Assembly (NCBI GenBank): GCA_017524805.1
Contig: JAFXUX010000008.1
Span: forward strand, 62,001-126,000
Direction of reading: 5' to 3'
Length of the DNA stretch: 64,000 nucleotides
DNA from: Candidatus Methanomethylophilaceae archaeon
GTDB lineage: Archaea > Thermoplasmatota > Thermoplasmata > Methanomassiliicoccales > Methanomethylophilaceae
This document shows, piece after piece, positions 1,670 to 42,277 of this stretch. The notes beneath the pieces were generated by a model, which searched no databases, was not told the origin of the DNA, and worked only from the letters and a program-made list of their open reading frames with translations. A program made the translations under genes and the position numbers. Position 1 is the first letter of the stretch; every line of letters starts with the position of its first letter.

Positions 1670-2146
1670 TCAAAATGTTAGTGAAAAACCATCAGAGAAA
1701 ATACCGGGAAAAGAAGAGAGGTAGCCTCGTGCAGATTCGAACTGCAGTCGCAGGATCCAGAGTCCCGCATGATTGACCACTACACTACGAGGCTGATTGA
1801 CACCCTGATTGGATTCTGGTTTTAAAATTTTTCGTTGATCGTAGTTCTCATCCAGGGTTCCGATGCGGTATTCCTCGTCCAAGAGGGATTTCACGCTTTT
1901 CAGGAGGGAGGCGACCTGCATCCCTTTTTGGGTGAGCATATATGTGGTGGCCGGATGCGGGGCTTCCACGCTGTATTTCTTCAGGAGCCCCAAGTCCGTC
2001 AGTTTTTGCGCTCCCTTCTTCACCTTGTCGTAATTGCTGCTGACTCTCAGCAGATCAATCGTGCGTATCTCTTTGAAGTCGAAGACGAGCAGCATAATGC
2101 CGGCCAGATCAGGCTCGCAGAACAGCCATTTGTAATCGGTTTTCAT
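1670..2146 (-). CDS. Winged-helix protein whose reading frame runs through tRNA-Gln
   Basis: A 158-codon frame. Residues 1-105 look like a winged-helix transcription factor: a helix-turn-helix around residues 28-58, then the wing ending in TTYMLTQKGMQVASLL. It starts at 2146, overlapping the 3' end of the preceding winged-helix gene by 38 bp, so the two are probably one operon of related regulators. No stop occurs before the tRNA-Gln gene, and the frame stays open through the whole tRNA (1722-1794) to a TGA at 1670. The last 40-45 residues are therefore probably a read-through tail rather than a domain. The DNA target and ligand are unknown. Confidence 0.6.
   Translation of the reverse strand: MKTDYKWLFCEPDLAGIMLLVFDFKEIRTIDLLRVSSNYDKVKKGAQKLTDLGLLKKYSVEAPHPATTYMLTQKGMQVASLLKSVKSLLDEEYRIGTLDENYDQRKILKPESNQGVNQPRSVVVNHAGLWILRLQFESARGYLSSFPGIFSDGFSLTF
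1722..1794 (-). tRNA. tRNA-Gln (anticodon CTG)
   Basis: A 73-nt cloverleaf with acceptor AGCCTCG/CGAGGCT, anticodon stem CGGGA/TCCTG, loop CTCTGGA giving anticodon CTG, and T-arm TGCAG-TTCGAAT-CTGCA. No CCA is encoded. A TATA-like AAATTTTAAAA lies about 25-35 bp upstream on this strand, inside the coding frame of the winged-helix gene. Confidence 0.9.
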
Positions 2147-2498
2147 CCGTCTTCGCCTCCTTATCCATTTGAGACAGTATTTCGCTGACCTTTTCGTCTA
2201 CCGACTCCGTCTCGAAGCTGAACTCTCCGGAAACGAACTTTTCATTCACGATCTGGAGGGCAGCTACTTTTTTCCCGCGTTCGGTGAGCGCTATTGTGAA
2301 GCATAGCCGAGGTTCGGTCTCCGGTCTGCATTCGACGAGACCCAATGACTCAAGGTTCTACAGCGTTCTCTTTCTCATTGACAGGTTGAGCACTGCTTCT
2401 TTGAGTCCGGAAAGATTGGTCGAGCCTTTTCCAAGGAGCGTAATCAGAATACGTATGCCGTTTCTATCCAAATCAGGGTTTTTGGCATCGATTCCCAT
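2109..2498 (-). CDS. Winged-helix regulator with an in-frame amber codon
   Basis: A 129-residue winged-helix protein that reads without interruption except for one TAG at codon 47 (2358-2360). Before it the protein reads NGIRILITLLGKGSTNLSGL and LNLSMRKRTL; after it NLESLGLVECRPETEP and LTERGKKVAAL. Together these make one ordinary wHTH, with the TAG in the recognition-helix region where relatives often have an aromatic or polar residue. The ATG at 2498 sits about 25 bp from a TATA-like box (about 2519-2530). The amber could be read as pyrrolysine, could be a fresh nonsense mutation, or could be a sequencing error. The second winged-helix gene follows with a 38-bp overlap. Confidence 0.55.
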
Positions 2499-2796
2499 GG
2501 GTTCATAATTATATGGATGATATAATTATCAATTTTTATTCTAATTTATACATTTATACATAATTGGACTTGTATACATTTCAGTACCTAATATATCAAT
2601 TATTAAAATTTATAGGTAAACATGAGTTCATTCGGCGAGAGGGGGATGAGGGCTTTCAGGCTTGGATTCCGGCGATAAATGAAGGTCCCAACCCGGTTGG
2701 ATTAGGAAGGGATCACGCACATCGGATGCCAGATGCACCGGTCCGGCACCGAGAGCAAAAGAATGATGGGCGGCCGAAGCCAGCCCGGAAAAAGGT
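2499..2796. other. Intergenic region, AT-rich promoters and about 180 bp without a gene
   Basis: 2500-2615 is strongly AT-rich and holds the promoter of the winged-helix pair. A further TATA-like run (2598-2612) faces the + strand, followed by about 180 bp of GC-richer sequence up to the adk stop codon. I see no convincing protein in it; a short box C/D-like pattern near 2760-2806 is too weak to call. Confidence 0.4.
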
Positions 2797-3423
2797 TCAC
2801 TGAATGGCTTTCTTGACTTTCTCGAAGATCTCGTCGATGGAACCGACGCCTTCCACGGTCACGAGCTTCCCTTTGCCCTCGTAGTAGCCGATGAGGGGCA
2901 TGGTCTTCTCGCGGTAGGTTTTCAGCCTGTTGAGGACCGTCTCTTCGGTGTCGTCATCCCTCTGGTAAAGGGCGGCGCCGCATTTGTCGCAGACCCCTTC
3001 CTTTTTGGGGGCGTTGTAGAGCAGGTGATAGACCGCGTTGCAAGAGGGGCAGGAGCGCCTCATGGTGATCCTTTTCACGAGCTCCCCATCGTCGACGTCG
3101 AGGTTCAGGGCGATGTCGACGTCCATCTGCTCTCCGAGGGCATCAGCCTGCTCGATGGTCCTGGGGAATCCGTCGAGTATGACTTTTCCGTTTGCGGCGG
3201 CTATTTTCTCTTTCATCAGCCCGATGATCAGGTCGTTGGGCACGAGAGCGCCGGCGTCCATGTACTCTTTCGCCTTTTTCCCGAGTTCGGTCCCGTTCTT
3301 TACGGCTTCGCGGAGCATGTCTCCCGTGGAGAGCTTGACGTATCCGAATTCGGAGCAGAGCTTTTCGCCCTGGGTTCCTTTCCCTGATCCCGGGGGCCCA
3401 AGAAGAACGATGGTGGATTTCAT
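2797..3423 (-). CDS. adk: Adenylate kinase
   Basis: A 208-residue AMP kinase (ATP + AMP to 2 ADP) of the long, bacterial-like type with a zinc-binding LID. The P-loop GPPGSGKGTQ lies at residues 9-18, the AMP-binding STGDMLR at about 32-38 and DGFPRT at about 84-89. The LID carries two Cys pairs, CPSC and CDKC. Length and domain order are normal. It is transcribed alone, divergently from the GlcD-type oxidase; the 130 bp between them hold both promoters. Confidence 0.95.
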   Translation of the reverse strand: MKSTIVLLGPPGSGKGTQGEKLCSEFGYVKLSTGDMLREAVKNGTELGKKAKEYMDAGALVPNDLIIGLMKEKIAAANGKVILDGFPRTIEQADALGEQMDVDIALNLDVDDGELVKRITMRRSCPSCNAVYHLLYNAPKKEGVCDKCGAALYQRDDDTEETVLNRLKTYREKTMPLIGYYEGKGKLVTVEGVGSIDEIFEKVKKAIQ

Positions 3424-5029: not shown

Positions 5030-5716
5030 TCAAAGAGTGTAGTAAAGCCCCATCCTGAAGAGCAGGATGAATTCCGCGGCGGCCACGGCCAAAGCGGCTA
5101 TCCAGATGCCTATGTTCCATCTGAAGATTTTGGATCCGTCAAGCGGCGGGATGGGAATCAGATTGAACAGCGCCAGAGAGGCGTTCAGGCTGGCCAGGAG
5201 GAAGAACGGCACGACGATGACGTTGCCGTTGAAGGCGAAGCATCCGATGAGGCCTATGGCGGCGAAGACTATGTTGACGGCAGGCCCGGCTATGCTTATC
5301 TTCCCGTTGGTCTTGGGGTCCATCTGATTCGCGGCTATCATCACGGCTCCGGGCGCGGCGAACAGGAATCCCGCGAAGGAAAGGATCACAGAGAACATCA
5401 GCCCGGCCGGGAACATGCGGTATTCCGACCAGAGACCGTGCTTCTGGGCGACGAATTTGTGCCCAAGCTCATGCAGCAGAAAGCTGATGACCACGAGAAC
5501 GACGGAAGTCAGGAAAAGGCCGACATATTTTACGGTCCCTTCGCCGAAGAAGTGTTCGAAAGCGGTCATTATGAAACGGTTGTTCCTGGACACATAAATC
5601 AGCGTGAATGACAGCGCAAGGACCAGAACGGAAATCGTGATGTCCCTGAGCTCAACCTTGCTGAAGCGTGGGCTACCGAATCCCGTGTTGACTTGGTATG
5701 TCGCTCCGTTAGCCAT
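5030..5716 (-). CDS. M50 site-2-protease-type membrane metalloprotease
   Basis: A 228-residue integral membrane zinc protease with about six hydrophobic segments. The catalytic HELGH lies near residue 86 and the second zinc motif NLIPIPPLDG near 190, the two hallmarks of the family. It has no PDZ or CBS domain, as in many short archaeal M50 proteins. Such enzymes cleave substrates within the membrane; the substrate here is unknown. I chose the ATG at 5716 over a GTG five codons upstream. Its promoter region lies back-to-back with the PAPS-reductase-like gene. Confidence 0.85.
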   Translation of the reverse strand: MANGATYQVNTGFGSPRFSKVELRDITISVLVLALSFTLIYVSRNNRFIMTAFEHFFGEGTVKYVGLFLTSVVLVVISFLLHELGHKFVAQKHGLWSEYRMFPAGLMFSVILSFAGFLFAAPGAVMIAANQMDPKTNGKISIAGPAVNIVFAAIGLIGCFAFNGNVIVVPFFLLASLNASLALFNLIPIPPLDGSKIFRWNIGIWIAALAVAAAEFILLFRMGLYYTL

Positions 5717-40438: not shown

Positions 40439-40834
40439 ATGTCCATAGTGAAGATGAAGAACAAGAAGACGGGGGTGACCTACGTCTATGAATCCACATC
40501 GTACTGGGATAAGGAAAAGCGCCAGCCTCGCAACAAGCGCAGGCTCATCGGGAAGCTGGATCCAGCCACAGGCGAGATTGTCCCCACCGGGAGGAGAGAG
40601 CCGGCCAAAGGGCCTGTTTCGATGGGCGGCGGCACGCCCGAACCATCGGACTTCGGGCCCGATATGGGAGCATCCATCGACGAGAGGGAGGCCGAGATAC
40701 TCGAGCTCAGGAAAAGGGTCCTCGAGCTCGAGATCCAGCTCGGGAAAAAGACTGCGGCGCTGGAAAGGATCAGGCGCGCCCTAGACTCCTGCTCTGAGCG
40801 AGAACATGAGCGGATCCGAGAACGCACGTCCTGA
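40439..40834 (+). CDS. IS66-type accessory protein
   Basis: 131 residues. The N-terminal part (KNKKTGVTYVYESTSYWD, KRRLIGKLDPATGEIVP) resembles the N-terminus found in transposases of archaeal IS1634/IS4-like and IS66-like elements. The C-terminal 45 residues form a coiled coil (EAEILELRKRVLELEIQLGK). The gene is intact and overlaps the transposase start by 29 bp. It is probably a DNA-binding or regulatory partner of the transposase. Confidence 0.65.
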   Translation: MSIVKMKNKKTGVTYVYESTSYWDKEKRQPRNKRRLIGKLDPATGEIVPTGRREPAKGPVSMGGGTPEPSDFGPDMGASIDEREAEILELRKRVLELEIQLGKKTAALERIRRALDSCSEREHERIRERTS

Positions 40835-42277
40835 TGCCAGCAGAGAGGAGCTGCTTGCGGAAATCGAGTCCCTGAGACTGGAGTGCAGGGCCAAGGACGA
40901 GACGATCAAGGCCCTCCAGGAGAGGATCAAGGAGTTCGAGGGTAGGGTGAGGATGAACTCCGCGAACAGCTCCAAGCCCCCTTCCAGCGACGGCTTCATG
41001 TAGCCGTCGCCCAAGAGCCAGCGCGTAAGGAGCGGAAAAAGGCCAGGCGGGCAGCAGGGGCATGAGAGGCACAACATGAAGCTCCCGGCTGAGCCGGACG
41101 AGGTGATTCGCTGCATCCCCAATAGGTGCTCGGGATGCCAAGGCCTGGCCGGATGCATCTCCGGCCAGGCTTTCGAAGTGGCGGAGAGCAGATATGTGGT
41201 CGACGCCGTGATGGAAGTGAGGGTGCGCGAGTACAGGGCGATGCGCGTGAAGTCGTGCCCCGTGGACGGGCGTCGCGGCGTGTCGATTGGGAGCTGCGGC
41301 CAATTCCCAGAGGGGGTGAGAGCGCACGTCCAGTACGGCGATTCCTTCGCTGCTGTGGCCGGGATTCTCAACACCTACGGAGCGGTCAGCACATCCCGCG
41401 TCAGCGACCTGATACGCAGCATGTTCGGGGTCTCCTTGTCCGTCGGGACTGTGGATTCCATGTTGCGCAGATGCGCGGAGTGCGCCGAAGAAAGCCTGGA
41501 GGGCGTCAGTGAAAAATCGTCGAATGCGACGTCTCCAACTCGACGAGACCGGAGTGAGATGCGGTGGCAAGCTGATGTGGGTCCACAGTTCCTCGACGCC
41601 GCAGTTCACCTACCAGACTGTCAGCGAGAAGCGCGGGACAGAAGGCATATACGACAACGGGGTCCTCAAGGATTTCCGGGGGATAGCGGTCCATGACTGC
41701 TGGCACCCTTACTGGAATTTCTGGAGGGCGAAGCACGCTGTCTGCTGCGCGCATCTGCTGAGGGAGCTTACGGGTGTGGAGGAGATGGAGCCGGGCCATG
41801 AATGGCCACGGCGTTTCAGAAGCCTTCTCCTGGACATGAAGTCCGAAAAAGAGGCAGCCCAAGCCGATGGGAAGGATTCTCTGGACGCGAAGCAACTGCA
41901 GCGTTTCGACGATCTGTACGACGAGATCATCCAATTGGCAGATTCCGAGCGCCCTCCCCCGCCGGGACCCCGGAGTGAAAAGGAGGGGAAAACGCAAGCT
42001 GGGGAAGGAGCGCGCTCTCATAGAGCGCCTCCGCGCCTTGAAGGGGTCCGTGACCCTCTTCGTCCATGATTTCAGGGCTCCATTTGACAACAACCAGGCG
42101 GAACGCGATGTTCGCAATCTGAAGACGAAGGTCAAGGTCAGCGGATGCTTCCGCACCAAGGAAGGGGCTAGGAGGCATCTGCAGGTGATGTCGTACATCA
42201 GTACGGCCAGGAAGCAAGGCGGGAACGCCTTCGAATCATTGGTGACGGCTCTTTCGAACCATCAGGACCTATCGTAA
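40806..42277 (+). pseudogene. IS66-type transposase, broken
   Basis: IS66 homology is continuous only across three frames. An N-terminal coiled coil and NSSKPPSSDGF are followed by TAG at 41001-41003; the same frame continues PSPKSQRVRSGKRPGGQQGH. A +1 shift near 41505-41515 (after ECAEESLEG) leads to LQLDETGVRCGGKLMWVH, the catalytic region. A second +1 shift near a C-rich run (about 41955-41975) leads to NNQAERDVRNLKTKVKVSGC and the end. One amber plus two shifts indicate decay. The last codons coincide with the inner part of the right inverted repeat. Confidence 0.8.

Follow-up and report, generated by a model that had tools for sequence, protein, structure and literature searches.

The winged-helix regulator gene wHTH1, found in a 64,000-nucleotide stretch of archaeal DNA (the window), very probably encodes one full-length MarR/HxlR-like protein whose residue 47 is pyrrolysine, since TAG serves this organism as a sense codon for that amino acid. 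Ribosomes would insert pyrrolysine at codon 47 and thereby complete a single DNA-binding protein. The source, a methanogenic gut archaeon, belongs to the Methanomethylophilaceae, and its close relatives come mostly from ruminants: six relatives with an identical tRNA-Gln sequence are metagenome-assembled Methanomassiliicoccaceae, Candidatus Methanomethylophilaceae or Thermoplasmata, several of them from sheep omasum, colon or rumen. A TAG of this kind is expected for these archaea; its use for pyrrolysine in additional genes has already been published for close relatives. The unexpected part is that regulators at the adk/tRNA-Gln(CTG) locus apparently picked up TAG unusually often.

An in-frame TAG in the winged-helix gene wHTH1

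The gene extends from an ATG at 2498 to a TGA stop at 2109-2111 and encodes 129 residues including one pyrrolysine (Table 1). The dicodon score of its frame is 13.4 before the TAG and 21.9 after it, indicating coding on both sides; homologues align across the codon, and the translation with TAG written as O (MGIDAKNPDLDRNGIRILITLLGKGSTNLSGLKEAVLNLSMRKRTLONLESLGLVECRPETEPRLCFTIALTERGKKVAALQ...) is that of a single winged-helix protein. Frame, dicodon score and alignment thus bear out the original prediction that codon 47 is a TAG inside one winged-helix reading frame.

Table 1. Features of the locus and TAG sites discussed in the text (G000, genome of the window; other G numbers, relatives)
Feature	Location	Strand	Basis or remark
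wHTH1, winged-helix regulator gene with in-frame TAG	window 2109..2498	minus	dicodon score, homologues, structure model
Codon 47, TAG, probably read as pyrrolysine, in the modelled recognition helix	window 2358..2360	minus	TAG likewise in G030; model
wHTH2, second winged-helix gene	window 1670..2146	minus	start inside wHTH1 (38 nt overlap)
tRNA-Gln(CTG)	window 1722..1794	minus	constant neighbour of winged-helix gene(s) in most of the genus
adk (adenylate kinase)	window 2797..3423	minus	upstream neighbour of the locus in most of the genus
Two operator-like sites upstream of wHTH1	window 2557..2586	minus	one mismatch each to TACA-N4-TGTA, 18 bp apart
TAG sites	G000 and G030, codon 47; G001, helix 1		
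TAG sites, second gene	G010, recognition helix (equivalent site); G022, helix 2		
TAG site	G009, recognition helix, three residues later		
TetR regulator with in-frame TAG	G000 C8:179331-179999		
MarR regulator with in-frame TAG	G000 C8:15649-16392		
Ribbon-helix-helix regulator with in-frame TAG	G000 C23:59839-60525		

Fold and profile searches with wHTH1 led to MarR-type regulators. An AlphaFold2 model based on a six-row alignment (pLDDT 79.8; the single-sequence model, with pLDDT 41, was not used) displays the helix-helix-recognition helix-wing order of MarR/HxlR regulators, in which residues 39-51 form the helix that directly precedes the wing. The model places residue 47 in the recognition helix, as had been predicted, and more exactly in its C-terminal half, beyond the segment with which MarR-type proteins commonly contact bases. 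Matches to the MarR/HxlR winged-helix structures PDB 3s2w, 1lj9 and 7kjl cover recognition helix and wing at ~20% identity. Since the gathering scores of Pfam HxlR and MarR are not reached (HxlR 16.1 bits, cut-off 20.8), we call the protein MarR/HxlR-like only. With its winged helix it is no member of the MtmB/MtbB/MttB family of classical pyrrolysine methyltransferases, and it presumably works as a DNA-binding regulator.

Six homologues of wHTH1 were found in the genus, while a related-locus search of the genome contigs with the wHTH1 protein alone gave no match. Alignment of the homologues, as suggested with the original prediction, revealed TAG at the same codon in G030, a different species whose protein is 53-57% identical; at this position G006 and G032 carry GAG, G001 GAC, G027 CTG and G010 GCA. 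Downstream of the TAG, synonymous changes between G000 and G030 (27/44) exceed nonsynonymous ones (39/151; P=6e-5), and the same excess is found upstream (P=0.009). Judged by these counts, purifying selection acts on the half after the TAG; the absence of such selection, which the original prediction had named as evidence against pyrrolysine, is not what we find. As characterizes a pyrrolysine-containing protein, the sequence before and after the in-frame TAG of wHTH1 is thus both homologous and constrained. The GAG (Glu) codon of two relatives is one substitution from TAG, and pyrrolysine may have replaced a surface Glu at residue 47 by a near-neutral change.

A fresh nonsense mutation, which the original prediction had considered the main alternative, or a pseudogene would fit the mid-gene stop codon and the lack of the gene in some relatives. 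However, because G030 shares the TAG in spite of the protein divergence and purifying selection acts downstream of it, both were rejected, as was an assembly error. Moreover, no TAA or TGA interruption was seen in the winged-helix genes of the locus, and the chance that mutational routes yield six TAG out of six is about 0.006. Nonsense mutation or gene decay is therefore highly improbable.

TAG as a sense codon in the genome

The genome of the window (1.95 Mb, 55% G+C) contains tRNA-Pyl(CTA) at C25:7127-7197, followed directly by pylS, pylB, pylC and pylD, each scoring above its NCBIfam curated cut-off, and mtbB and mttB with in-frame TAG are located near these genes. The search for pylTSBCD proposed with the original prediction hence found the full set, and PylS was detected in 29 of the 31 genomes of the genus. 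PylSn is absent, which is no evidence against pyrrolysine because PylS is shortened in the order Methanomassiliicoccales (PMC3941956).

The cognate tRNA and all Pyl genes also bear on the notion that TAG is decoded by another tRNA, for instance the adjoining tRNA-Gln(CTG), to give Gln. This tRNA is a constant neighbour of the gene, but with tRNA-Pyl(CTA) at hand and Glu, Asp, Leu or Ala, not Gln, at the site in relatives, decoding as Gln has hardly any probability. From gene content and codon comparison we infer that the residue inserted at codon 47 is pyrrolysine, and TAG in the whole archaeal group is almost certainly read in this way.

G000 was read in stretches and its genes were called by a dicodon model. 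With TAG read as a stop, 88 of the 1,558 ORFs end in TAG, and strongly coding extensions follow 56% of the TAG ends compared with 10% of the TGA and 17% of the TAA ends. With TAG read as sense, coding signal both precedes and follows the TAG in ~68 genes, some of which look like gene-calling artefacts; they hold 76 TAG codons in 570,000. In citrate synthase, TsaD/Kae1, FeoB and dihydrouridine synthase (Dus), the Pfam domain extends across the TAG. A composite query of TAG-centred segments (the first 32 of 52) was searched in four relatives; here, a shared TAG denotes one within the matched stretch, not always at the exact position. In this sense, G030 also holds TAG at 11 of the 22 matched non-methyltransferase sites, and the other three relatives at 2 to 5 of 15 to 18. 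As half of the tested sites are common to G030, we rejected the idea that its sharing of the wHTH1 TAG is something special. The pyl set, the ~68 TAG genes and the half of tested sites shared with G030 together indicate that G000 has inherited TAG as a normal sense codon.

Kivenson and co-workers reportedly described in 2025 an archaeal 'Pyl code' in which all TAG codons stand for pyrrolysine. In G000, too, TAG is in general use as a sense codon: apart from a handful of TAG ends, it is rare as a stop and frequent in housekeeping genes. TAG sites common to several species show that the codon is inherited as a normal one in the genus, and standard annotation would break up or miss dozens of genes per genome, core enzymes included.

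Within the window, the 62 standard-code genes stop with TGA (55), TAA (6) and TAG (1). The earlier statement that all window genes stop with TGA or TAA holds in that no TAG stop is convincing, and requires amendment for the one called TAG end. This codon (41001-41003) is an internal in-frame TAG of an IS66-type transposase, and a DUF6444 match spans it; the window hence contains two TAGs that are in-frame and lacks a convincing TAG stop. The original prediction does not mention this second site. In the transposase (40806-41696, plus strand) the TAG is codon 66, and the DUF6444 match comprises residues 10-91.

Two further observations concern TAG elsewhere in G000. Codon 100 of C7:52158-53633 apparently is an old pyrrolysine site: each of the four relatives has a TAG in the matched stretch, although identity is only 51-58% in three of them. 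Furthermore, a TetR, a MarR and a ribbon-helix-helix regulator carry an in-frame TAG outside the DNA-binding domain.

Comparison with other pyrrolysine-using archaea

In 'Ca. Methanomethylophilus alvus', a member of the same order, in-frame TAG likewise occurs beyond the methyltransferases: Table 7 of Borrel et al. 2014 (PMC4153887) gives 16 such putative pyrrolysine genes, one of them for an Rv0623-like transcription factor. TAG makes up 1.6% of the stops, and the authors argue for constitutive pyrrolysine expression and a stable gain of in-frame TAG. Unlike wHTH1, no winged-helix protein is listed in that table, and the passages on in-frame TAG describe no recurrent gain at one regulator locus. 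The rumen isolate ISO4-H5 has 46 genes with in-frame amber (PMC5011839) and resembles G000 as a ruminant member of the Methanomassiliicoccales with similar genome size and G+C and with amber codons both in core genes and in insertion elements; in its passages on amber genes that report names no regulator of the wHTH1 kind.

Set against these systems and the ~68 TAG genes of G000, the novelty originally suggested for a pyrrolysine-containing regulator is not supported as stated, one transcription factor being among the pyrrolysine genes in Table 7 of PMC4153887. The pyrrolysine reading itself gains from the pyl set, the conserved TAG and the downstream selection, whereas its presentation as an isolated new kind of case is not supported. 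What wHTH1 adds is a regulator with a conserved pyrrolysine codon in its DNA-binding domain.

Recurrent TAG at the adk/tRNA-Gln(CTG) locus

Among the genomes with this tRNA, seven species have a TAG in winged-helix genes of the locus, apparently acquired in six independent events, one common to G000 and G030 and one each in G001, G006, G010, G022 and G009. In G006 the homologous pair is located elsewhere on the contig (C88, L011), with the TAG in the C-terminal helix near the gene end; PylS was not detected in this genome, which is 82% complete. At the locus, 1,536 codons hold five independent TAG events, whereas 90 other winged-helix matches with together 7,037 codons hold none (P=2e-4, or 1e-3 without the ascertained event). 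TAG is likewise absent from 150 HTH_27 and 106 TetR_N matches in the genus, and their inclusion, with an estimated added codon count, results in P of about 2e-6 (3e-5 without the ascertained event). Because we recognized the enrichment post hoc and TAG is more frequent in the short genes of G000 (100-150 aa, 5.2 per 10,000 codons; above 250 aa, 1.05), we treat it as a lead.

Given the TAG frequency in short genes and the lack of one or both winged-helix genes in several relatives, we favour a neutral form of the full-length pyrrolysine reading, in which a fast-evolving, weakly constrained locus probably collected TAG faster than other places and without any function, even though TAG is lacking in the other winged-helix genes of these genomes and purifying selection between G000 and G030 is clear. 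Alternatively, pyrrolysine dependence may have been selected here, with TAG kept or regained such that wHTH1 and the overlapping wHTH2 depend on charged tRNA-Pyl and regulator synthesis reports pyrrolysine, hence methylamine, status; this would be an addition to the full-length reading and leave the decoding unchanged. The six events at different sites, the enrichment over other winged-helix, HTH_27 and TetR_N matches, and the gene overlap, through which a stop at codon 47 would affect the second gene too, are consistent with such gating. However, the occurrence of TAG in core genes, Kae1 and citrate synthase among them, implies a constant pyrrolysine supply, many orthologues (G027, G032 and wHTH2 in most relatives) have no TAG, and the sites are scattered. 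We thus consider gating unlikely. The original proposal to tie expression to pyrrolysine supply is weakened accordingly, and the recurrent TAG gain leaves it some room as a testable lead on pyrrolysine supply as a signal.

Two features of wHTH2 are visible in the sequences. Its ORF in the window continues without a stop across the tRNA-Gln gene, whereas in G027 and G032 it ends ahead of the tRNA. In G030 (L224, ~5580-5610), ACG instead of ATG occupies the conserved start position, which is either real or a metagenome assembly error.

Upstream of the homologues in G001, G027, G032 and G006, we observe tandem inverted repeats TACA-N4-TGTA with 18-19 bp spacing. The repeat is exact in G001 (three copies) and clearer in relatives than in G000, where it is weak. 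These repeats are likely operators for the winged-helix pair, and the wHTH1 protein would then probably be autoregulated through them.
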